A DNA stretch of 64,000 bases from Actinophytocola algeriensis (lineage in GTDB: Bacteria; Actinomycetota; Actinomycetes; Mycobacteriales; Pseudonocardiaceae), in assembly GCF_014203735.1 (NCBI RefSeq), contig NZ_JACHJQ010000005.1:1-64000 (forward strand), given 5' to 3'. The position numbers and the translations under genes are program-made. The notes under the pieces are model-generated. The model did no database searches, was not told the origin of the DNA, and saw only the letters and a list, made by a program, of their open reading frames with translations. Position 1 is the stretch's first letter. The number at the start of each line of letters is the position of its first letter. Below, piece after piece: positions 53,682 through 64,000 of the stretch.

Positions 53682-55343
53682 TCAAACACCCGCCGCGTAC
53701 TGGTGGATCTGCGTCACGGCAAGTGCTCCCTCGCCCACGGCGGAGGCGATGCGCTTCACCGAGTCGGCACGGACGTCGCCCGCCGCGAACACCCCGGGCG
53801 CGCTCGTCTCGAGCAGCATCGGTGCGCGGGGCAGGTCCCAGCTCTCGTCGAGCCCGCCAGCCAGCGCGGGTCCGGTGAGCAGGTACCCGCCCGCGTCCCT
53901 GCGCACCGCGCCCGCGAGCCACTCGGTGCGCGGGCGGGCGCCGATGAAGCTGAACATGGACTCCGCCGCGATCTCGTCGGTGGCACCGGAGTCGTTGTCC
54001 CGCAACGTGATCCGTTCCAGGTGCGCCGACCCGCCCACGGTCTCGACCTCGGTCGTCACGCGTACCTCGATGTTCGCCGTCCCGTCGATCTCGTCCACCA
54101 GGTAGCGCGACATGCGGCTCGCCAGCGACGTCGCCCGCACGAGCATCGTCACCCGCTCGGCGTGCTTCGCGAAGTGCAGCGCCGCCTGACCGGCCGAGTT
54201 CGCGCCACCGACGATCACCACGTGCTGGCCCGCGCACAGGGCGGCCTCGGAGTTGGTGGACCCGTAGTAGATCCCCGCGCCCTCGAAGCGGTCGCAGCCG
54301 TCGATCGCGAGGCGGTGGTAGGACAGGCCGGTGGCCAGCAGCACGCTGCCCGCGCCGATCTCGCGGCCGTCGGACAGGCCGATCAGGTGCGCGCGGCCCG
54401 CCCTGCGCAACGACACAGCACCGACCGGGGCGAGTAGTTCGGCGCCGAACCGGCGGGCCTGCGCCACCGCGCGCCGCGTCAGCTCGGCACCGCTCACCCC
54501 GGCCGGGAACCCGAGGTAGTTCTCGATCCGGCTGGACATGCCTGCCTGGCCGCCGGGCACGTGCGCGTCCAGCAGCAGCGTCGACAGGCCCTCCGACGCG
54601 CCGTACACCGCGGCGGCCAGCCCGGTGGGCCCGCCGCCCACGATGACCAGGTCGTAGTGCGGGCGGGACAACTCGCCACGCAGGCCGAGCGCGTCCATCA
54701 GGCCGGCCCGCGTCGGCCGCACCAGCCGCCTGCCGTCCGGCAGCTCCACCGCGGGCACCTCGCCATCGTGTTCTGAGCCGTCGGCCGCCACGTCGACGAA
54801 GCGGAACGGCTGCAACAGGCGGGTGAGGAGGTCCCGGAGCTGGTGCGTCGCGGGGGAGAACCGGTGGCCGATCACCCGGATGCCCTCGTACGGCGGCTCG
54901 TAGGTCGACTGCCACTCCGCCAGCTGGTCGTCCAGCACCGGGTACAGCCGCTCCGCGGGCGGCTCCCACGGCTTGACCAGGTAGTGGTGCAGCTTCACCT
55001 GGTTGATCGCGTCGATCGCGGCCGTCGTGTCCGCGTAACCGGTCAGCAGCACCCGCCGTGCCGACGGAAACCGGTTCAGCGACTCGGCGAAGAACTCGAT
55101 GCCCGTCATCTCCGGCATGCGCTGGTCGACGAGGAGGAGCGCGGGCTCCTCCCGGCGTTCCGCGAGCTGGTCGAGGATGCGCAGCCCGTCGGCGGGCGAG
55201 GTCGTGCACAGCACCCGGTAGCGGTCGCCGTAGGCGCTGAGCAGGTCCCTGCGGACGGCCCGCAGCACGTGCGTGTCGTCGTCGACGGCGAGCAGAGCCG
55301 GGCGGTGCCTCGGCGGTGTGGACGGCGGCGTGGACACGGTCAT
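53682..55343 (-). CDS. Response-regulator receiver fused to thioredoxin-reductase-like FAD oxidoreductase
   Basis: 553 residues from ATG 55343. Receiver at about 15-140: acidic triad AVDDDTHV, phospho-Asp 73 in LLVDQRMPEMTG, YLVKPWEP with Lys. A short beta/thioredoxin-like linker (VIGHRFSPATHQLRDLLTRL, VPAVELPDGRRLVRPT) spans 150-235. The FAD domain starts YDLVIVGGGPTGLAAAVYGA near 250, then GGQAGMSSRIENYLGFP, a second NAD(P) loop VVIVGGANSAGQAALHF near 385, and FAAGDVRADSVKRIASAVGE near 525. The redox CxxC of thioredoxin reductase is replaced (GIYYGSTNSEA), so it cannot reduce thioredoxin in the usual way. No histidine kinase is adjacent. It is divergent from the DJ-1/ThDP/GlgX operon. Confidence 0.88.
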   Translation of the reverse strand: MTVSTPPSTPPRHRPALLAVDDDTHVLRAVRRDLLSAYGDRYRVLCTTSPADGLRILDQLAERREEPALLLVDQRMPEMTGIEFFAESLNRFPSARRVLLTGYADTTAAIDAINQVKLHHYLVKPWEPPAERLYPVLDDQLAEWQSTYEPPYEGIRVIGHRFSPATHQLRDLLTRLLQPFRFVDVAADGSEHDGEVPAVELPDGRRLVRPTRAGLMDALGLRGELSRPHYDLVIVGGGPTGLAAAVYGASEGLSTLLLDAHVPGGQAGMSSRIENYLGFPAGVSGAELTRRAVAQARRFGAELLAPVGAVSLRRAGRAHLIGLSDGREIGAGSVLLATGLSYHRLAIDGCDRFEGAGIYYGSTNSEAALCAGQHVVIVGGANSAGQAALHFAKHAERVTMLVRATSLASRMSRYLVDEIDGTANIEVRVTTEVETVGGSAHLERITLRDNDSGATDEIAAESMFSFIGARPRTEWLAGAVRRDAGGYLLTGPALAGGLDESWDLPRAPMLLETSAPGVFAAGDVRADSVKRIASAVGEGALAVTQIHQYAAGV

Positions 55344-55439
55344 GGGCACCAGTGTCGCCGCGTACCAGGGAATTCCCCGACAACCTGACGAAGTGGCCGG
55401 AAGCCGGCGCGGACTTCGTGGAGTAGGGGGCCCGGTTCT

Positions 55440-55474: not shown

Positions 55475-56296
55475 GTGACGAAGATACTCATCATTCTCTC
55501 GGAATACGGCTACTGGGGCGAGGAACTCCTCGGACCGCTCGTGGCTTTCGACGAACGCGGCTACCAGAGCGTGTTCGCCACGCCGACCGGCAAGCGCGCG
55601 CACGCGCTGCCGCCGAGCCTCGACCCCGGCTACATCGATCCGCCCCTCGGCCGTTCGGTCACCACACCGGAGGTCGCGGTGGCGGCGCGGGAACTCGACG
55701 AGTCGTCCCGTTTGGACAATCCGATCAGCCTCGAACAGTGGATCCCCGACCGGCCATACCAGAGCGAGCAGGATCCGCTGCGCAGGATGGAGGCCTACTA
55801 CCGCGAGCTCGCGACCCTGGACACCGACGTCGAGCAGTACGACGCGCTCGTGGTCGTCGGCGGCAGCGGGCCCATCGTCGACCTCGCCAACAACGGCAGG
55901 CTGCACGAGCTGGTCCTCGCGTTCGTGCGTGCGGACAAGCCCATTCTCGCGCTGTGCTACGGCGTCGCCGCCCTCGCGTTCGCCCGCGACTGGGAGGACC
56001 GCAAGAGCATCATCTGGGGCAAACACGTCACCGGGCACTGCAAGGAGTACGACTACAAGGACGGCACGGGGTTCCTCGGCGTCGACTTCAACATGGGCCC
56101 GCCGCCGTACCCGCTGGAGTACATCCTGCGCGACGCGACCGGCCCGGACGGGCGCTACCACGGCAACGTCGGCAAGGAGACCTCGGTCATCGTCGACCAC
56201 CCGTACGTCACCGCACGGTCCACTCCGGACTCCTTCCTCGGCGGCAGCAAGCTCGTCGAGGTGCTCGAGTCCGGTCTGCGCCGGTACGGCTGGTAG
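55475..56296 (+). CDS. DJ-1/PfpI superfamily protein (first of two)
   Basis: 273 residues from GTG 55475 (no strong Shine-Dalgarno). VTKILIILSEYGYWGEELLG opens the class I glutamine amidotransferase-like fold; YDALVVVGGSGPIVDLANNG near 124-143 and the nucleophile elbow KPILALCYGVAALAFARDWE (Cys near 158) follow, then FLGVDFNMGPPPYPLEYILR. The Cys elbow is typical of glyoxalase/hydratase, chaperone or amidase members (Hsp31-like). Longer than simple DJ-1 proteins. First gene of the nine-gene operon; six bases from the ThDP enzyme. It may detoxify or process a reactive carbonyl. Confidence 0.8.
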   Translation: MTKILIILSEYGYWGEELLGPLVAFDERGYQSVFATPTGKRAHALPPSLDPGYIDPPLGRSVTTPEVAVAARELDESSRLDNPISLEQWIPDRPYQSEQDPLRRMEAYYRELATLDTDVEQYDALVVVGGSGPIVDLANNGRLHELVLAFVRADKPILALCYGVAALAFARDWEDRKSIIWGKHVTGHCKEYDYKDGTGFLGVDFNMGPPPYPLEYILRDATGPDGRYHGNVGKETSVIVDHPYVTARSTPDSFLGGSKLVEVLESGLRRYGW

Positions 56297-56302
56297 GCCG
56301 CC

Positions 56303-57895
56303 ATGCACGCGCGACCCGGCAAGATCGCGATCTTCGAGCAGTTCGCGGCGGACGGCATGACCACCATGTTCGGCAACCCCGGCACCGTGGAGCAGGGCTT
56401 CCTGGACATCGTGGACCAGCTGCCCGCGTTCGACTACGTGCTGGCGTTGCAGGAGACCGTCGCGGTCGGCATCGCGGACGGGTACTGCCGGGCCGCGGCC
56501 GCGCCCGCACTGGTGCAGCTGCACACCGGTGTCGGTCTCGGCAACGGGATCGGCATGCTGTACCAGGCGAAGCGCGGCCACTCGCCGCTCGTGGTGATCG
56601 CGGGCAGCTCCGGCGTGCGCTACGACGCCATGGACTCGCAGATGGCCGCCGACCTCGTCGCCATGGCGCGGCCGGTGACCAAGTACGCGACCAGGGTCAC
56701 CGACCCCTCCTCGGTGCTGCGGGTGCTGCGCCGCGCGGTGAAGATCGCCATGACCCCACCGCGCGGGCCGGTGTTCGTCGAGCTGCCCATGGACGTGCTC
56801 GACGCGCCGACCACGGAACCCGCGATCCCGGCGAACATCCCGAGCCGCGCGACGCTCCCGCCGCACTCCGAACTGGACCGCGCGGCCGAGCTGCTGCTCG
56901 GCGCGCAACGCCCGGTGATCCTCATCGGTGACGGGGTCGCGGTGTCCGAGGCGCAGAACGAGCTGACCGAGGTGGCTGAACGGCTCGGCGCACCCGTGTG
57001 GGGCGTGGACACGTCCGAGGTGAACATGGACACCACGAACCCGTTGTACCGCGGGGAGACCGGTCACATGTTCGGCGAGGTGTCCGCCAAGGCGGTCGCG
57101 GACGCGGACGCCGTGCTGATCGTCGGCACGTACGTGTTCCCGGACGTGTTCCCCTTGCTGGACAACCCGTTCGGCGACGCGAAGGTCGTGCACATCGACC
57201 TGGACGAGTACGAGATCGGCAAGAACCACCCGGTGGACCTCGGACTGGTGGCCGACCCGAGGATGACCCTCGCCGGCCTCGCGGCCCGGCTGCCCGACCG
57301 GCGGGGCGAGCGGACCGGCTGGCGCAGGCCGCCGGTCGACCAGGGCGACCCGCTGATCGAGCAGTTCGCCGCGGCGCTCGCCGACCGGGTGACCGGTGAG
57401 CTGGTGGTGTTCGACGAGGCGCTGACGGCGTCCCCCGGCCTCCGGCGCCACCTGCCGCCCCGGGTACCGGGGAGCTACTTCGCCACCCGGGGCGGTTCCC
57501 TCGGCGTCGGGATCCCGGGCGCCATCGGGACCAAGCTCGCGCGGCCGGCCGCGGAGGTGGTCGGGTTCACCGGTGACGGCGGCAGCATGTACACGGTCCA
57601 GGCGTTGTGGACGGCAGCGCGGTACGGCGTCGCGGCCAAGTTCGTCATCTGTGACAACGGCCGGTACCGCTTGCTGGACAACAACATCGAGCAGTACTGG
57701 CGGGAACGGGACATCCAGCCGCACGCCTACCCTGGCTCGTTCGACCTGACCACACCGCCGATCGGCTTCGTGGCGCTGGCGGAGAGCATGGGCGTGCGGG
57801 GCGTCAAGGTCGAGAAGGCGGCCGACGTCGAGCAGGCGGTGGCCGACATGCTCGACCACGACGGCCCGTTCCTGGTTCACCTGATCACGTCCTGA
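56303..57895 (+). CDS. Thiamine-diphosphate-dependent 2-oxoacid decarboxylase/synthase
   Basis: 530 residues, three-domain ThDP enzyme. N-terminal Pyr domain: FGNPGTVEQGFLDIVDQLPA near 23-42 and catalytic Glu in VLALQETVAVGIADGYCRAA near 50. Middle domain: RPVILIGDGVAVSEAQNELT. PP domain: GVGIPGAIGTKLARPA and the GDG...NN signature, VGFTGDGGSMYTVQALWTAA with FVICDNGRYRLLDNN near 450-465. Resembles benzoylformate decarboxylase/glyoxylate carboligase/acetolactate-synthase relatives; no separate small subunit is present. It would make or cleave a C-C bond next to a carbonyl. Between two DJ-1 genes, which fits glyoxal/glyoxylate or alpha-keto aldehyde chemistry (inference). Confidence 0.88.
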   Translation: MHARPGKIAIFEQFAADGMTTMFGNPGTVEQGFLDIVDQLPAFDYVLALQETVAVGIADGYCRAAAAPALVQLHTGVGLGNGIGMLYQAKRGHSPLVVIAGSSGVRYDAMDSQMAADLVAMARPVTKYATRVTDPSSVLRVLRRAVKIAMTPPRGPVFVELPMDVLDAPTTEPAIPANIPSRATLPPHSELDRAAELLLGAQRPVILIGDGVAVSEAQNELTEVAERLGAPVWGVDTSEVNMDTTNPLYRGETGHMFGEVSAKAVADADAVLIVGTYVFPDVFPLLDNPFGDAKVVHIDLDEYEIGKNHPVDLGLVADPRMTLAGLAARLPDRRGERTGWRRPPVDQGDPLIEQFAAALADRVTGELVVFDEALTASPGLRRHLPPRVPGSYFATRGGSLGVGIPGAIGTKLARPAAEVVGFTGDGGSMYTVQALWTAARYGVAAKFVICDNGRYRLLDNNIEQYWRERDIQPHAYPGSFDLTTPPIGFVALAESMGVRGVKVEKAADVEQAVADMLDHDGPFLVHLITS

Positions 57896-57981
57896 GTCGA
57901 TGCTCACTCCGCGAGCTCCGTCTGGGTCGATGCTCACTCCGCGAGCTCCGTCTGGGTCGATGCTCACTCCGCGAGCTCCGT
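57896..57981 (+). repeat. Three tandem 30-bp repeats between the ThDP and second DJ-1 genes
   Basis: The unit GTCGATGCTCACTCCGCGAG plus CTCCGTCTGG is repeated with period 30 (ATGCTCACTCC at 57900, 57930, 57960); the third copy loses its last bases. The array starts directly after the ThDP stop and ends 15 bases before the DJ-1 start, filling the only long gap in the operon. Each unit carries an ATG in frame with the next gene and reads MLTPRAPSGS. Confidence 0.95.
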
Positions 57982-57995
57982 TCGAAAGGACAATC

Positions 57996-58628
57996 GTGAA
58001 CACCATCCTCCGCGAGGGCGGACGGCTGGCAGGACGCAGCGTCGCCGTGTTGATGGAGACGGACTACGTCGAGCCGGAGCTGTGGTACTACCTCCGCCGG
58101 TTCGCGGAGGAAGGTGTCCAGCCGCAGCTGATCACGAGGTTGTGGGGTCAGCCGTCGATCACGTTCACCGGGCACGAGCACCAGCTGCCGATCACGGTGG
58201 ACGGTGACCTCGAGTCGATCGACGTGTCGACTTTGGACGCACTGATCGTACCGTCCGGCATGGTGTCCGACCGGCTGCGCTACTCCGAACACGTCGACGA
58301 GCCGGCTCCCGCGGTGCGGTTCGTGCGGGCGGCGTTCGCGGATCCCGGTGTCCTCAAGGGGATCATCTGCCACGGCATGTGGCTGGTCTCGCCGATCGCG
58401 GAGGTGGTCCGCGGCAGACGGGTCACCTGCCACAACAACCTGATCGGCGACGTGCGCAACATGGGGGCGGTCTACACCGACCAGGACGTGGTGGTCGACG
58501 GCGACCTGGTGACCGCCCGCAGCGCCGACCACTGCCACCTGTTCGCCCGCACGGTCATCGACCTCGTCGCCGCGCGGGCGGGCAGCACCCGGAGGTCCGT
58601 CGTGGACCGGATGGCGAGAAGGGCATGA
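57996..58628 (+). CDS. DJ-1/PfpI superfamily protein (second)
   Basis: 210 residues from GTG 57996, preceded by AAAGGA seven bases away; in-frame ATGs inside the upstream repeats would add up to 32 residues of repeat-coded sequence. GRSVAVLMETDYVEPELWYY, LDALIVPSGMVSDRLRY near 82-98, nucleophile elbow GIICHGMWLVSPIAEVVRGR (Cys near 122, usual AxCHGPW), CHNNLIGDVRNMGAVYTDQD. Closest to PfpI/YhbO-type deglycase or peptidase-like proteins. Its TGA overlaps the AGE gene ATG. Confidence 0.88.
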   Translation: MNTILREGGRLAGRSVAVLMETDYVEPELWYYLRRFAEEGVQPQLITRLWGQPSITFTGHEHQLPITVDGDLESIDVSTLDALIVPSGMVSDRLRYSEHVDEPAPAVRFVRAAFADPGVLKGIICHGMWLVSPIAEVVRGRRVTCHNNLIGDVRNMGAVYTDQDVVVDGDLVTARSADHCHLFARTVIDLVAARAGSTRRSVVDRMARRA

Positions 58629-60481
58629 CCGTGCACTCGGATCTCACCGCGCACCTGATCGCGCGCAACGGCCACACCACACCCGTCGGCGCCTCGGAGT
58701 ACACCGTCTCCGACCTGATCGCTGGTTACGTCACCGGGACCGACGGGTCCTCGGTCGAGCTGCGGACCTCGGACGGGCGGGCGCAGCGGATCGTCATCGG
58801 GCACAACACCTCCGCGGAGTTCCTGCGGAACCTGGGGGAGCCGTACGTCGACGCGACCGCGCAGGTGCCGGAACTGCTGGCTCGGGGCGCCTACCTGTAC
58901 GCCTACGGGGTCCGCTACCCCGACGGGATGTTCGACGCGAAGCGGCTGATCTTCCTCGGCCGCAGGCCGGGGGACTACAACTTCGAGGACCCCCACTGGT
59001 GGGCGCGGCAGCTGGGGGAGATCGCGCGGTTCTACCGGCGGGCGCAGTTCGGCGACAAGCGGCCGGTCGACTTCGCCGACTACCGCACCGTGCTGCGCCT
59101 CGGCGGCGACAAGAGCGACCACTTCGTGCAGGAGACGGACACGATCTCCCGCCTGGTGTACGGGATGGCGTCGGCCTACCTGCTCACCGGCGACGACGAC
59201 TTCCTCGACGTGGCCGAGCGCGGCGTGGACTACCTGCGCGACCACATGCGGTTCGTGGACCGCGACGAGGACGTCGTGTACTGGTACCACGGCATCGACG
59301 TGCGCGGCGGCACCGAGCGCAAGCTGTTCACGTCCGAGTTCGGCGACGACTACGAGGCGATCCCGGCCTACGAGCAGATCTACGCGCTGGTCGGGCAGAC
59401 CCAGACCTTCCGGGTCACCGGCGACCAGCGGATCAGGAGCGACATCGACGCGACGATGCGGCTGTTCCACCGCTTCTTCCGCGACCCGGAGCGCGGCGGG
59501 TACTACTCGCACGTCGACCCGGTGCTGCTGTCCCCGCACCAGGAGTCGCTGCGGCACAACCGGTCGCGCAAGAACTGGAACTCGGTCGGCGACCACGCGC
59601 CCGCGTACCTGATCAACCTCTACCTCGCGACCGGGGACGAGCGGCACGCCGACATGCTGGCTGAGACGTTCGACCTGATCACCGAGCACTTCCCGCGCGA
59701 GGACAGCCCGTTCGTGCAGGAACGGTTCCACGACGACTGGACCCCGGACCAGGAGTGGAGCTGGCAGCAGGACCGGGCGGTCGTGGGGCACAACCTGAAG
59801 ATCGCCTGGAACCTGATGCGGATGAACGCGATCCGGCCCGACCCCCGCTACGTGGAACTGGCCGAACGGCTCGGCCGGACCATGCCGGGCGTGGGCAGCG
59901 ACCGGCAGCGCGGCGGCTGGTACGACGTCGTGGAACGGGTGCTCGCCGACGGCCGCGACCAGCACCGGCTGGTGTGGCACGACCGCAAGGCCTGGTGGCA
60001 GCAGGAACAGGCGATCCTCGCCTACCTGATCCTGGCGGGCAACACCGGCGACACCGATTTCCGGCGGCACGCGCGGGAGGCGTCCTCGTTCTACAACAGC
60101 TTCTTCCTCGACCACGACGAGGGCGGCGTGTACTTCAACGTGCTCGCCGCGGGCACTCCGTACCTGCTCGGCACCGAGCGGCTCAAGGGCAGCCACTCGA
60201 TGAGCATGTACCACAGCAGCGAACTGTGCTTCCTCGCCACCGTGTACCAACGGCTCCTCCTGACCGGCGAGCCGCTCACCCTCTGGTTCCGCCCCAGGCC
60301 CGATGCCGACCGGGTACTGCGCACCGCGCCGGACGCGCTGCCGCCGGGAAGGGTGCGGCTGTCGTGGGTCGAGGTCGACGGACGGCCGTACTCCGCCTTC
60401 GACGCGGACGAGATGACCGTGAAACTGCCCGACACCAGGCACGCGCTCACGGTGCGTGCTCATCTGTCCCCTGTGGACTGA
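58625..60481 (+). CDS. N-acylglucosamine 2-epimerase (AGE)-fold enzyme with N-terminal extension
   Basis: 618 residues from ATG 58625 (ATGA overlap). About 100 N-terminal residues (SDLIAGYVTGTDGSSVELRT, VIGHNTSAEFLRNLGEPYVD) look like a small beta domain; then an (alpha/alpha)6 barrel: DTISRLVYGMASAYLLTGDD, AYEQIYALVGQTQTFRVTGD, NWNSVGDHAPAYLINLYLAT, WQQDRAVVGHNLKIAWNLMR, WWQQEQAILAYLILAGNTGD, SHSMSMYHSSELCFL. His/Glu/Arg residues at helix ends fit AGE-family active sites (mannose, cellobiose or N-acylglucosamine 2-epimerases), but length and extension make the substrate uncertain. Next gene after 15 bases. Confidence 0.8.
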   Translation: MTVHSDLTAHLIARNGHTTPVGASEYTVSDLIAGYVTGTDGSSVELRTSDGRAQRIVIGHNTSAEFLRNLGEPYVDATAQVPELLARGAYLYAYGVRYPDGMFDAKRLIFLGRRPGDYNFEDPHWWARQLGEIARFYRRAQFGDKRPVDFADYRTVLRLGGDKSDHFVQETDTISRLVYGMASAYLLTGDDDFLDVAERGVDYLRDHMRFVDRDEDVVYWYHGIDVRGGTERKLFTSEFGDDYEAIPAYEQIYALVGQTQTFRVTGDQRIRSDIDATMRLFHRFFRDPERGGYYSHVDPVLLSPHQESLRHNRSRKNWNSVGDHAPAYLINLYLATGDERHADMLAETFDLITEHFPREDSPFVQERFHDDWTPDQEWSWQQDRAVVGHNLKIAWNLMRMNAIRPDPRYVELAERLGRTMPGVGSDRQRGGWYDVVERVLADGRDQHRLVWHDRKAWWQQEQAILAYLILAGNTGDTDFRRHAREASSFYNSFFLDHDEGGVYFNVLAAGTPYLLGTERLKGSHSMSMYHSSELCFLATVYQRLLLTGEPLTLWFRPRPDADRVLRTAPDALPPGRVRLSWVEVDGRPYSAFDADEMTVKLPDTRHALTVRAHLSPVD

Positions 60482-60496
60482 ACGGTCGGAGGAGCC

Positions 60497-60832
60497 ATGG
60501 AGTTGGCGAAGTACATGCGTGGCCGCGTCACCGTGCTGGCGCTCGAGGGCGAGCTGGACAGCGCCACGTCCGGTGAGGCGCGCAAGCGGATCAGCGAGCT
60601 GGTGCCGTCGGACGGTGCCGCGCTGCTCGACCTCGGTGGCATGACATACATGTCCAGCGCCGGGTTGCGGGTGCTGTTACTCGTCTACCGGCAGGTGCGG
60701 CAACTGGGGGTGCCGCTGGCGCTCGCCCGGCTCAACCCGGACGTGGCCGAGGTGATGACCGGAACCGGGTTCATCGACTTCTTCACGGTCGTGGACTCGG
60801 TCGACGACGGTGTGGAGGCACTGAGCGGATGA
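60497..60832 (+). CDS. STAS-domain anti-sigma factor antagonist (first)
   Basis: 111 residues. ALEGELDSATSGEARKRISE, LLDLGGMTYMSSAGLRVLLL with the phosphorylatable Ser in SSAGL near 55, and ALARLNPDVAEVMTGTGFID are the anti-anti-sigma (SpoIIAA/RsbV) pattern. Unphosphorylated protein would bind the HATPase anti-sigma kinase and free a sigma factor. Leu 61 is encoded by the rare TTA (60677-60679), within the signature helix. Four-base overlap with glgX. Confidence 0.92.
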   Translation: MELAKYMRGRVTVLALEGELDSATSGEARKRISELVPSDGAALLDLGGMTYMSSAGLRVLLLVYRQVRQLGVPLALARLNPDVAEVMTGTGFIDFFTVVDSVDDGVEALSG

Positions 60833-62976
60833 GCGTGCAGTGGATGGACACCGTGCCGGCGACGGCGGCCGCGCAGTCCCTGTCCCCCGACAGCGACCCG
60901 TGCCCGACGGGCCGGATCGCCGGGCTCGACGTGCGGGCGGGCAGGCCGCTGCCGTTCGGCGCGACGCGGGTGCCCGGCGGGATCAACTTCTCCGTGTACT
61001 CGACGGGAGCGACCGCCGTGACGCTCGTGCTGTTCCGGCGCGGTGCGGAGGAACCGTTCGCGGAGCTGGTGTTCCCGGACTGCTACCGCACCGGTTCGGT
61101 CTACGCCATGACGGTGTTCGGCCTGTCCGCCGACGACTTCGAGTACGGCTACCGCATCGACGGTCCGTGGCAGCCGGAGCGGGGCGACCGGTACGACTCG
61201 AGCCACATCCTGACCGACCCGTACGCGACGGCGCTCGGCGGCCGCGAGACCTGGGGCGAACCGGACGACCGGAAGTACCGCTACCGCGCGCGGGTGGCGC
61301 CGGACGACTTCGACTGGGCCGGTGACCGGCCGCTCAACCTGCCCATGCAGGACCTCGTGATCTACGAGGCGCACGTGCGCGGCTTCACCCGCCACCCGTC
61401 GTCCGGCGTGCACTGGCCCGGCACGTTCGCCGGGCTCGCCGAGCGCATCCCGTACCTGGTCGAGCTGGGTGTCAACTGCGTCGAGCTGATGCCGGTCCTG
61501 GAGTTCGACGAGAACGAGAACCGGCCGTCCGGGCTGCACAACTACTGGGGGTACAGCACCGTCGGGTTCTTCGCGCCCAAGGCGTCCTACGCGGCGGCGA
61601 GCCGCTACGGCCGCCAGACCGACGAGCTGAAGAACCTCGTCAAGCAACTGCACGCGGCGGGCATCGAGGTCATCCTGGACGTGGTGTTCAACCACACCGC
61701 GGAGGGCGACGAGCGCGGGCCGACACTGTCCTTCCGCGGACTGGACAACCGGGTCTACTACATGCTGACCCAGGACGGCCACTACTACAACTTCAGCGGC
61801 ACCGGCAACACCGTGAACTGCAACCACCCGGTCGTGCTCCGCTTCGTGCTGGACTGCCTGCGGTACTGGGTGTCCGAGTACCACGTCGACGGGTTCCGGT
61901 TCGACCTGGCCGCGGTGCTCGGCCGCGACTCCGACGGTTCCCCGCTCGCCAACCCGCCGCTGCTGGAGACGCTCGCGACCGACCCGATCCTCATGCACAC
62001 CAAACTGATCGCGGAGGCGTGGGACGCGGGCGGGCTCTACCAGGTGGGCAGCTTCCCGGACTACTGCCGGTGGTCGGAGTGGAACGGGCGCTACCGGGAC
62101 GCGATCCGCCGGTTCCTCAAGGGGGAGCCGGGCACGGTCAGCGAGATGGCCGACCGGATCGTCGGATCACCAGACATGTACCTGCGGCGCGGCCCGGTGG
62201 CGTCGGTCAACTTCGTGACCTCGCACGACGGGTTCACGCTGCACGACCTGGTCGCCTACAACGACAAGCACAACGAGGCCAACGGCGAGCACGGCGCGGA
62301 CGGCGACAACGCCAACCACTCGTGGAACTGCGGGCACGAGGGCCCATCGGCCGACCCCGGGGTGCTGGCGCTGCGGCGCAGGCAGATGCGCAACGCGCTG
62401 GTGCTGCTGCTGACGAGCCACGGCGTGCCGATGCTGCTCGCGGGGGACGAGGTCGCCCGCACCCAGCACGGCAACAACAACGCCTACTGCCACGACAGCG
62501 AGCTGTCGTGGTTCGACTGGCACGGCCTCGCGGCGAACGCCGACCTGCTGCGCTTCACCCGGCGCGCCATCGCGTTCCGGCACGCGCATCCGGTGCTGCG
62601 CAGGCGCTGGCACGCCTCCGGCCACGCGCACGGCGCGCTGTTCCCGGACGTGAGCTGGCACGGCGTGCGCGCGTGGACCCCGGACTGGTCGGCGCACGGC
62701 AGGCTGCTGGCGGTCATGTTCCACGCCGAGTCGACCGGCGCCGCGGAGGGCGCGCCGGACACCGTGTACGTGGCCGCGAACGCGCACTGGGAGGGCCACG
62801 ACCTCGAGCTGCCCGGCCTGCCCGCCCACCTGGCGTGGCACCTGTTCGCGGACACCCACAGCGAGCCGTACGCGGCGGAGCCCGGCGCCGAGCCGCGGCT
62901 CGGCGACCAGGAACGGGTCCACATCGGACCGAGGACGGTGCTCGTGCTGGTGGCGCGGGAGCCGGGAGGGAGTTGA
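60829..62976 (+). CDS. glgX: Glycogen debranching enzyme (isoamylase type, GlgX)
   Basis: 715 residues. CBM48 N-terminal module (LPFGATRVPGGINFSVYSTG, YRIDGPWQPERGDRYDSSHI, LTDPYATAL) precedes the GH13_11 barrel: IYEAHVRGFTRHPSSGVHWP, VELMPVLEFDENEN, VVFNHTAEGDERGP, nucleophile Asp in VDGFRFDLAAVLGRD near 355, acid/base Glu in LIAEAWDAGGLYQVGSFPD near 394, and TSHDGFTLHDLVAYNDKHN near 464. It hydrolyses alpha-1,6 branches of glycogen. Usually found with treY/treZ or glg genes; here it is set between two STAS genes, overlapping the first by four bases, two bases from the second. Confidence 0.94.
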   Translation: MSVQWMDTVPATAAAQSLSPDSDPCPTGRIAGLDVRAGRPLPFGATRVPGGINFSVYSTGATAVTLVLFRRGAEEPFAELVFPDCYRTGSVYAMTVFGLSADDFEYGYRIDGPWQPERGDRYDSSHILTDPYATALGGRETWGEPDDRKYRYRARVAPDDFDWAGDRPLNLPMQDLVIYEAHVRGFTRHPSSGVHWPGTFAGLAERIPYLVELGVNCVELMPVLEFDENENRPSGLHNYWGYSTVGFFAPKASYAAASRYGRQTDELKNLVKQLHAAGIEVILDVVFNHTAEGDERGPTLSFRGLDNRVYYMLTQDGHYYNFSGTGNTVNCNHPVVLRFVLDCLRYWVSEYHVDGFRFDLAAVLGRDSDGSPLANPPLLETLATDPILMHTKLIAEAWDAGGLYQVGSFPDYCRWSEWNGRYRDAIRRFLKGEPGTVSEMADRIVGSPDMYLRRGPVASVNFVTSHDGFTLHDLVAYNDKHNEANGEHGADGDNANHSWNCGHEGPSADPGVLALRRRQMRNALVLLLTSHGVPMLLAGDEVARTQHGNNNAYCHDSELSWFDWHGLAANADLLRFTRRAIAFRHAHPVLRRRWHASGHAHGALFPDVSWHGVRAWTPDWSAHGRLLAVMFHAESTGAAEGAPDTVYVAANAHWEGHDLELPGLPAHLAWHLFADTHSEPYAAEPGAEPRLGDQERVHIGPRTVLVLVAREPGGS

Positions 62977-62978
62977 CC

Positions 62979-63302
62979 ATGGAGTTCCAGGGGAAGATGC
63001 ACGCGGAGAACGGTGTCGCCACCATCCGGCTGATCGGCGAGGTGGACTCGCGGTCCGCGCACCGGCTCAACGAGCTGATCGTCGCGGCGGCCGGCCGGAC
63101 CCCCCGGCGGCTGGTGCTGCTCGCCGAGGATCTCACCTACCTGTCCTCCGCCGGGCTGCGCTCGCTGGTGTTCGCGCACCAGAAGATGGGGCGCGACGTG
63201 GAGATCGTACTCGTCGGCGTGCGGCCGGAGGTGGCGGAGACCATCCGGCTCACCGGGTTTGACCGCAGCATCGTGATGCAGGAGGCGGTGGAGGAACGAT
63301 GA
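62979..63302 (+). CDS. STAS-domain anti-sigma factor antagonist (second)
   Basis: 107 residues from ATG 62979. ATIRLIGEVDSRSAHRLNEL, LVLLAEDLTYLSSAGLRSLV with target Ser in SSAGL near 54, then VEIVLVGVRPEVAETIRLTG. Same class as the first STAS protein but clearly diverged, so the two probably bind different partners or respond differently. ATGA overlap with the kinase gene. Confidence 0.92.
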   Translation: MEFQGKMHAENGVATIRLIGEVDSRSAHRLNELIVAAAGRTPRRLVLLAEDLTYLSSAGLRSLVFAHQKMGRDVEIVLVGVRPEVAETIRLTGFDRSIVMQEAVEER

Positions 63303-63745
63303 TCGCCGTGCGAGCCCGTGGCATCGACGAACTCGGTGTCATGATCCCCGCCATCGTGGACCGGCTCGCACGTGCGACGGGGCTGACGCACAGCCAGGCC
63401 TACCGCCTGCGGCTGGCAACCGAGGAGATCACCACCAACATCGTGACGCACGGGTACGGCGGCCGGGGCGGCACGGTCGACATCGACGCCGGGTACGACG
63501 AGGTCTGGGCGTGGGTGCGGATCGAGGACGACGCGCCCGGGTTCGACCCGACCACCTACGAGGTGGTGCCCCGGCTGACCGCGGATCCCGGCTGGCCCCC
63601 GCTCGGCGGTTTCGGGCTGTTCCTCGCACTGTCCAGTGTGGACCGGCTGGAGCACGCCCGCGTCGAGGGCCGCAACCGCAACCTGCTCAAGATCCGGCGC
63701 TCGGGAGGAACTGATGAGGAAGCCATGCGTGCTTATCGTGGCTGA
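63299..63745 (+). CDS. Anti-sigma factor serine kinase (HATPase_c_2, RsbW/SpoIIAB-like)
   Basis: 148 residues from ATG 63299. Bergerat-fold boxes: N box LRLATEEITTNIVTHGYGGR near 40-58 (EExxxN), G1-like WVRIEDDAPGFDPTT near 75-88, and G2-like PLGGFGLFLALSSVDRLEHA near 101-120. It should phosphorylate the STAS proteins and hold a sigma factor. No sigma factor gene is in the window; it may lie beyond 64 kb or elsewhere. It overlaps the next gene by 32 bases. Confidence 0.9.
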   Translation: MIAVRARGIDELGVMIPAIVDRLARATGLTHSQAYRLRLATEEITTNIVTHGYGGRGGTVDIDAGYDEVWAWVRIEDDAPGFDPTTYEVVPRLTADPGWPPLGGFGLFLALSSVDRLEHARVEGRNRNLLKIRRSGGTDEEAMRAYRG

Positions 63746-64000
63746 CGAGGCGGCCGGGACCACACAGCTGCCGGGACTGGCGCCCGCACTGTCCGATGGC
63801 GGGTTCGACGTGCGCACGGCCACCGAGGACGAGGTGCTGGCCTCGGACGAGCCGGACGGCCCGGACGGGTTGCTGGTGTCCGCCTCGCTCGGCCTGCAGC
63901 GGGTCGCGATGCTCGCCCGCCGGTTCGCGCACCTGCCGGCTCCGCCGACGACCATCGTGTTCCCGCAGGACGACCTCGACGCACTCGAGGCGTGCGTGCG
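63714..64000 (+). CDS. Receiver-like protein, 5' part (truncated by window end)
   Basis: From ATG 63714 (GGGAGG upstream) 95 codons are visible and run off the window. KPCVLIVADEAAGTTQLPGL, LAPALSDGGFDVRTATEDEV, then GLLVSASLGLQRVAMLARRF and TTIVFPQDDLDALEACVR have the strand-helix rhythm of a response-regulator receiver, but the first acidic pair is weak and the phospho-Asp position appears as Ser (LLVSASL), so it may be a pseudo-receiver. In partner-switching operons such an N-terminal domain often heads a SpoIIE/PP2C phosphatase; that would fit but cannot be seen here. Confidence 0.6.
   Translation, partial: MRKPCVLIVADEAAGTTQLPGLAPALSDGGFDVRTATEDEVLASDEPDGPDGLLVSASLGLQRVAMLARRFAHLPAPPTTIVFPQDDLDALEACV

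Follow-up and report, generated by a model that had tools for sequence, protein, structure and literature searches.

Protein on/off switches of the partner-switching kind usually control stress genes, and a locus of Actinophytocola algeriensis raises the question of what such a switch acts upon when its genes are interleaved with those of sugar enzymes. The locus lies in the first 64 kb of contig C5 (NZ_JACHJQ010000005.1) of the 9.73 Mb genome, a stretch of 64,000 nucleotides referred to here as the window. Nine plus-strand genes extend from 55475 to 64964, the last one passing the window end, in the order DJ1a, ThDP, DJ1b, AGE, STAS1, GlgX, STAS2, HATP and SpoIIE (Table 1). They encode two DJ-1/PfpI proteins, a thiamine diphosphate (ThDP) enzyme, an N-acylglucosamine 2-epimerase-fold enzyme (AGE), two SpoIIAA-like antagonists (STAS1 and STAS2), a glycogen debranching enzyme (GlgX), a serine kinase (HATP) and a phosphatase (SpoIIE). 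Judged by its genes and their order, the cluster belongs to the already known icfG type, here in an actinomycete. Its relatives suggest that a sugar enzyme may be directly in the grip of the switch, in that STAS2 probably regulates AGE, and perhaps GlgX, directly.

An icfG-type cluster in an actinomycete

The first-pass annotation of the window, made from its letters alone, described the ninth gene as receiver-like and proposed that a SpoIIE phosphatase be sought beyond 64 kb. The description holds for the N-terminal part; the protein itself is a SpoIIE-family PP2C phosphatase, so the enzyme sought was the ninth gene itself. With this assignment the switch is complete, consisting of two STAS antagonists, a SpoIIAB-like kinase and a phosphatase. 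In common with sigma-type partner switches it has a kinase of the SpoIIAB/RsbW type, an antagonist of the SpoIIAA type and a PP2C phosphatase. In the receiver-like part, the aligned phospho-acceptor column holds Asp in only one of 60 rows, five of which are gapped there.

The residues that we take to be catalytic are conserved throughout. The N-box Glu and Asn of the kinase are present in 60 of 60 rows, and Asp180 and Asp199 of SpoIIE in all 58 ungapped rows of 60. GlgX retains Asp336 and Glu373 in 77 of 77 rows and Asp444 in the 76 that are ungapped. Likewise, Cys161 of DJ1a is kept in 73/73 relatives, Cys126 and Glu29 of DJ1b in 80/80, and Glu30 of the ThDP enzyme in 73/73.

Links between the icfG operon of Synechocystis and carbon metabolism date back to the 1990s. 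It carries an epimerase, two STAS proteins, GlgX, a phosphatase and a kinase (PMC8670252, PMC12329169), and the earlier statement that no described system has the order seen in the window therefore does not stand. Compared with the published gene lists, the window has AGE, STAS, GlgX and STAS in the same order, with the SpoIIE phosphatase and the SpoIIAB-like kinase alongside. The operon slr1852-1862 of Synechocystis 6803 includes Slr1855, annotated as N-acetylglucosamine 2-epimerase, the antagonist Slr1856, GlgX and IcfG (PMC8670252). Slr1856 and Slr1859 are described as putative antagonists, IcfG as the phosphatase, Slr1857 as an isoamylase and Slr1861 as a kinase and anti-SigC factor that phosphorylates both STAS antagonists (PMC12329169); Slr1857 has been expressed as a debranching enzyme (PMC4911114).

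The likeness to icfG rests on these gene lists and on homology to further cyanobacterial loci that share the order. Four of the latter (L148, L216, L218 and L220) are arranged as AGE-STAS1-GlgX-STAS2-SpoIIE-HATP, which fits the Synechocystis gene numbers. The kinase gene precedes the phosphatase gene in the window, whereas the phosphatase comes first in this cyanobacterial order, and the first genes of the window operon are those of DJ1a, the additional DJ-1 protein, and the ThDP enzyme. The open-access literature, surveyed by title and the beginning of the abstract, yielded no treatment of an actinomycete or proteobacterial icfG-type cluster.

Conservation of the locus across three phyla

AGE is rare and patchy, yet its neighbours are mostly constant wherever it is present. 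A search among 60 relatives matched two genomes, another among 249 genomes of the family matched 24, and one among 396 genomes of the phylum matched seven, the own genome being included each time; within the genus, AGE was missing from all five of the other genomes searched. The seven phylum matches comprised the own genome, one strong match and five weak ones (E 8e-6 to 2.3e-4). With a cyanobacterial AGE-STAS2 protein as query (L145), 30 of 292 cyanobacteria matched, 26 of these with at least 390 bits. A scan of a species-level genome collection gave 512 confirmed relatives, and the organisms named here come from the best 80 of them, which is no census. Among these named genomes, Amycolatopsis circi has the nearest AGE (87%). 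Further actinomycetes included Saccharothrix, Nonomuraea, Streptomyces and Actinoplanes; the cyanobacteria were Nostoc, Anabaena, Elainella and Pegethrix; and the proteobacteria were Accumulibacter, Contendobacter and a Competibacteraceae bacterium. The proteobacterial and some of the cyanobacterial records are metagenome-assembled genomes.

Removal of 29 near-duplicates (AGE at least 95%) from 111 loci left 82, of which the 74 with enough flanking sequence formed the complete set. STAS2 was present in all 74, DJ1b in 72, GlgX in 71, DJ1a in 68, ThDP in 67, HATP in 58, SpoIIE in 57, STAS1 in 50 and TrxRR, the gene divergent from the operon in the window, in 25. Gaps, counted between matched domains, were at most 300 bp for AGE-STAS1 in 50/50 cases, STAS1-GlgX in 49/50, GlgX-STAS2 in 68/70, STAS2-HATP in 56/58 and HATP-SpoIIE in 52/57. 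Much or all of the arrangement is kept among actinomycetes, cyanobacteria and proteobacteria, which argues for more than chance. The conserved enzyme-STAS synteny that the first-pass annotation had proposed to search for was thereby borne out: even distant lineages have the enzymes and the switch genes together and in order, and the contrary pattern, in which the enzymes and the STAS and kinase genes never occur together, did not appear in the 74-locus comparison. Three genomes (G247, G152 and G794) have two or three copies of the cluster, and types with and without the kinase occur within one genome.

GlgX is assigned by its score above the TIGR02100 cut-off (Table 1) together with the Asp, Glu and Asp residues. 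The window protein shares 58-60% identity with its counterparts in cyanobacteria (L148, L138) and proteobacteria (L144, L152), as against 46, 42 and 35% with the three other debranching-type enzymes of its own genome. By these identities the cluster GlgX is a separate subfamily; the GlgX of a Nostocales locus of the fused type described below (L154) is also distant from the window protein (47%). An apparent GlgX-STAS2 fusion in L059 and L137 was ruled out, as its two GlgX pieces are in different frames.

STAS2, its phosphorylation site and the kinase

STAS1 and HATP occur together in 50 of the 74 complete loci, HATP alone in eight and neither in 16. STAS1 was never found without HATP, nor without GlgX, in this set; outside it, a locus with a broken AGE (L231) has STAS1 and no HATP found in its stretch. 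Both window antagonists contain the motif SSAGLR with a phosphorylatable serine, the acceptor being presumably the one that aligns with that of SpoIIAA/RsbV.

The serine of STAS2 was present in 60/60 loci with HATP and in 7/17 without it. After extra cyanobacteria had been added, the counts were 74/74 and 9/25, the latter still including two loci of unassigned kinase state (L140 and L227). The other residues in kinase-less STAS2 were Pro (5), Thr (3), Asp (3), Ala (2), Val (1) and Glu (1), with one gap. Fisher's test of serine against kinase gave p values of 1.8e-8 for the first set and 1.8e-12 with the extra cyanobacteria, statistics that ignore relatedness and are not strong. On a tree of 95 AGE rows, all 72 with kinase have the serine, compared with eight of the 23 without. 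The kinase state of eleven loci was left unassigned owing to contig ends or a broken or distant AGE, and four of these with STAS2 rows (L114, L140, L150 and L227) were dropped from the tree. The decay of the phospho-site is consistent in direction with its tracking the loss of the kinase.

Kinase-less STAS2 is nevertheless under purifying selection. The ratio of nonsynonymous to synonymous substitution rates (dN/dS) was 0.12-0.31 in the computable kinase-less pairs, one pair being saturated, as compared with 0.12-0.16 in three kinase-bearing pairs.

AGE and its natural fusion with STAS2

AGE belongs to the AGE/cellobiose 2-epimerase superfamily by fold and by sequence family, and its mean column identity is 71% over 18 actinomycete rows. 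It reached no NCBIfam equivalog cut-off. Its identity to cellobiose 2-epimerase and D-mannose isomerase is 12-19%, and, unlike in these enzymes, its barrel is preceded by about 100 additional residues and followed by about 75.

Ten cyanobacterial loci in which no kinase was found have STAS2 fused to AGE. A structure model of the AGE-STAS2 protein predicts an epimerase and a SpoIIAA fold within one chain; STAS-only rows, which misaligned to the N-terminus, were excluded from the modelling. Asp or Glu occupies the phospho-site in 4 of 7 deduplicated fused copies, perhaps representing a locked state. Such a natural fusion hints that the antagonist may act on the enzyme.

Proposed direct control of AGE and the alternatives

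We favour direct control because of the co-occurrence of the genes, their conservation, the AGE-STAS2 fusion and the precedent of SiaABCD in Pseudomonas aeruginosa. SiaC, which has an antagonist-like structure, is phosphorylated by SiaB and dephosphorylated by SiaA, and it binds and activates the enzyme SiaD, which makes this an enzyme-directed switch. SiaC is phosphorylated on Thr, however, and SiaD is a diguanylate cyclase with no sugar enzyme involved; the likeness drawn here is one of mode. In Synechocystis, deletion of Slr1859, which holds the STAS2 position, impairs growth on glucose at low carbon, whereas deletion of Slr1856 does not (PMC11619594); this phenotype fits direct control by STAS2. 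We give an even chance to the proposal that the locus is an icfG-type cluster in which STAS2 directly regulates AGE, perhaps also GlgX, and is itself switched by the kinase and the phosphatase.

According to this proposal, the phosphatase would oppose the kinase, with a signal perhaps entering through its receiver-like N-terminal part, and the balance of the two would set the phosphorylation of the conserved STAS serine. Unphosphorylated STAS2 would dock on AGE, perhaps on GlgX, and alter its activity, and STAS2 that is phosphorylated or held by the kinase would leave AGE undocked. STAS1 would couple debranching by GlgX to the same kinase, and DJ1b would act on the AGE side. Together they would form a post-translational gate on the path from glycogen to oligosaccharides and their subsequent conversion by AGE. 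The proposal builds on the observed gene content and order, the catalytic residues, the conservation in three phyla, the confinement of STAS1 in the complete loci to those with kinase and GlgX, the retention of STAS2, and the fusion. We infer from these the binding of the separate STAS2 to AGE or GlgX, as well as its sign, the substrates and the signal. A more elaborate version makes STAS2 a dedicated regulatory subunit of AGE that shuttles between kinase and enzyme as a metabolic valve, with GlgX coupled through STAS1 and with kinase-less lineages having frozen the switch by phospho-site decay or AGE fusion; this version we put forward tentatively, as falling somewhat short of an even chance.

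If true, partner switching would directly control storage-carbon enzymes, with a hardly studied epimerase-like enzyme at the centre, and the reach of the icfG operon would extend beyond SigC to enzymes, in cyanobacteria, actinomycetes and wastewater bacteria of the Accumulibacter type alike. The unit of AGE, GlgX and two STAS proteins conserved in three phyla, together with the fusion, provides a concrete candidate target.

Several observations weigh against direct control. Three of the 74 loci have AGE, STAS2 and the kinase without GlgX, and a later cyanobacterial locus (L224) keeps STAS1 and the serine in a 20 kb stretch that yielded no HATP. The serine survives in the nine of 25 kinase-less STAS2 proteins counted above. 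Kinase presence changed about five times on the AGE tree, and among independent pairs the serine went with the kinase in an average of 2.8, against it in 0 and showed no difference in 2.2, which is not significant with so few events. The AGE-STAS2 fusion has a single origin. AGE has three invariant His but reads GHNLK, with Lys in place of the Glu in GHDIE of the aligned cellobiose 2-epimerase, so that its reaction need not be 2-epimerisation. IcfG dephosphorylates Slr1856 and not Slr1859 in vitro (PMC12329169, PMC11619594), which implies that the phosphatase may not act on STAS2. Finally, Slr1861 binds SigC (PMC12329169).

The last point leads to the alternative that survives best, an ordinary sigma-factor switch in which HATP, as the anti-sigma factor, restrains a sigma factor whose gene lies elsewhere, the two STAS proteins serve only to lift that restraint, and the enzymes share the operon as members of the response. 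That Slr1861 binds SigC and also phosphorylates both antagonists (PMC12329169) speaks for it and makes a distant sigma target possible, and the N-box residues, kept in every kinase row, are equally in its favour. The first-pass annotation had proposed looking for a sigma factor near the operon; the four sigma70 proteins of the genome that have region 3 had no homologue in 136 stretches (2.73 Mb, duplicates included, E 1e-3; extracytoplasmic function (ECF) sigma factors were not searched), while as a control the same queries recovered each other's kin at about 30% identity. The SpoIIA and Rsb switches of Bacillus likewise comprise SpoIIAA-like, SpoIIAB/RsbW-like and SpoIIE-like proteins; the present loci differ from them in having no region-3 sigma70 homologue in the stretches searched and in the interleaved enzymes. 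Furthermore, STAS2 persists in loci with no kinase gene found, often with the phospho-site lost, and is welded to AGE in one clade, whereas nothing would be expected to retain it if it were purely an antagonist of the kinase. In Synechocystis the antagonist of SigC that has been studied is Ssr1600, whose gene lies away from the icfG operon, and the targets of both icfG antagonists among the sigma factors were still listed as unknown in 2025 (PMC12329169). We regard an ordinary sigma-factor switch as possible but doubtful. By analogy with the hold of Slr1861 on SigC, the kinase may additionally hold a sigma factor encoded elsewhere. Alongside one of the four sigma genes lies a weak match to HATPase (18 bits).

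STAS2 could instead serve AGE simply as a structural or oligomerisation domain acquired in a single event, with phosphorylation being incidental. The kinase-less and fused forms under purifying selection would agree with such a role; however, the serine is present in all 74 kinase-bearing loci, and the kinase and phosphatase genes adjoin STAS2 in most loci having them (the kinase within 300 bp, as given above), which renders this explanation improbable. Least credible is a mobile mixed operon that spread as a block and co-expresses switch and enzymes without a physical or regulatory link, because the tight order and small gaps in three phyla, the cluster-specific GlgX subfamily and the AGE-STAS2 fusion oppose it, even though the patchy distribution (24/249 genomes of the family, 0/5 others of the genus, up to three copies per genome) and the transposase-like genes adjoining several loci are in its favour.

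Operon anatomy and flanking genes

The first-pass annotation noted nine co-directional genes, ATGA at three junctions, one gap of 100 bases and a final overlap of 32 bases, and measurement of the sequence confirmed all of these. The distances in bases are +6 for DJ1a/ThDP, +100 for ThDP/DJ1b, -4 for DJ1b/AGE, +15 for AGE/STAS1, -4 for STAS1/GlgX, +2 for GlgX/STAS2 and -4 for STAS2/kinase, with the 32-base overlap at kinase/SpoIIE (ATG at 63714). Coordinates of the locus stretch L009 convert to window coordinates by subtracting 1 and adding 54000.

Table 1. Features of the icfG-type locus in window coordinates.
Feature	Description	Position	Strand	Profile match
TrxRR	receiver and pyridine nucleotide-disulphide oxidoreductase	53682..55397	-	Pfam Response_reg 44.1 bits, Pyr_redox_2 104.3 bits
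Candidate operator (tentative)	ACCTGACGAAGT, between TrxRR and DJ1a	55383..55394	+	
DJ1a	DJ-1/PfpI (ThiJ-like)	55475..56296	+	Pfam ThiJ_like 54.2 bits
ThDP	ThDP enzyme, benzoylformate decarboxylase-like	56303..57895	+	Pfam TPP_enzyme N, M and C
Repeat array	30-bp repeats, three copies, within the ThDP/DJ1b gap	57899..57979	+	
DJ1b	DJ-1/PfpI protein	57996..58628	+	Pfam DJ-1_PfpI 82.5 bits
AGE	N-acylglucosamine 2-epimerase-fold enzyme, extra N- and C-terminal parts	58625..60481	+	
STAS1	SpoIIAA-like antagonist, between AGE and GlgX	60497..60832	+	TIGR00377 73.5 (cut-off 53.45)
GlgX	glycogen debranching enzyme, cluster-specific subfamily	60829..62976	+	TIGR02100 707.9 bits (cut-off 640.9)
STAS2	SpoIIAA-like antagonist	62979..63302	+	TIGR00377 73.2 (cut-off 53.45)
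HATP	SpoIIAB/RsbW-like serine kinase	63299..63745	+	Pfam HATPase_c_2 56.5 bits
SpoIIE	SpoIIE-family PP2C phosphatase, receiver-like N-terminus	63714..64000, on to 64964 including stop (L009:9715-10965)	+	Pfam SpoIIE 144.6 bits

The nearest solved structures to the ThDP enzyme are benzoylformate decarboxylases, and its top NCBIfam match lies under the cut-off (308.5 vs 493). The gap after it holds an array of repeats (3 x 30 bp) that shares the reading frame of DJ1b, and an in-frame ATG at 57900 would place them inside the N-terminus of DJ1b. The same gap in Amycolatopsis circi (L091) is about 10 bp and has no repeats. A sister array with one substitution lies at G000:C7:33944-34024, just upstream of a SpoIIE-like gene.

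The candidate operator ACCTGACGAAGT occurs within 300 bp before DJ1a in 28/73 loci, at 1.78 per kb compared with 0.08 per kb elsewhere in the loci, a count that is partly circular because the 12-mer motif was derived from some of the same loci. No SigB-like, hrdB-like or ECF-like promoter pattern was found upstream of DJ1a in 23 loci. TrxRR, which accompanies 25 of the 74 loci, may belong to the system. It is divergent from the operon in the window and in other actinomycetes, and lies on the same strand downstream of AGE-STAS2 in some cyanobacteria (L145:12460, L209:11497).

Genes for a double EthD-domain protein, a muconolactone isomerase-like protein and an ankyrin-repeat-like protein (the last assigned by eye) recur upstream of DJ1a (L062, L063, L066-L069, L071, L073, L074, L050 and L052), and DJ1a has SnoaL-like, glyoxalase-like and, by eye, GMC oxidoreductase-like neighbours in other loci. 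Such neighbours may indicate that small-molecule chemistry takes place alongside the sugar enzymes. Putative GlgE, trehalose synthase and maltokinase genes, recognized by eye upstream in L055-L061 and L074, are a second tie to alpha-glucan metabolism.

Past the window, the operon is followed by an XRE/MmyB-type regulator, a KS-AT-ACP polyketide synthase and an AAA ATPase (L009:11043-16696); relatives of the synthase occur near 9/31 loci, as do relatives of the regulator. A transposase-like DDE gene (Pfam DDE_5) follows in the own genome at L009:17788-19125, and a family that is transposase-like by eye (f13) occurs near 10/31 loci, after STAS2 or GlgX in part of L062-L073. Such transposase-like genes beside the cluster fit horizontal spread.

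Two further regions of the own genome contain related genes. In L233 (G000:C2:822000-841900), a STAS gene scoring 48 bits and a weak match to HATPase of 12 bits lie a few kb downstream of another debranching-type gene, without adjoining it. A second region of HATPase-, STAS- and SpoIIE-like genes (L236, G000:C7:25000-44900) scores 24-119 bits against the cluster models.

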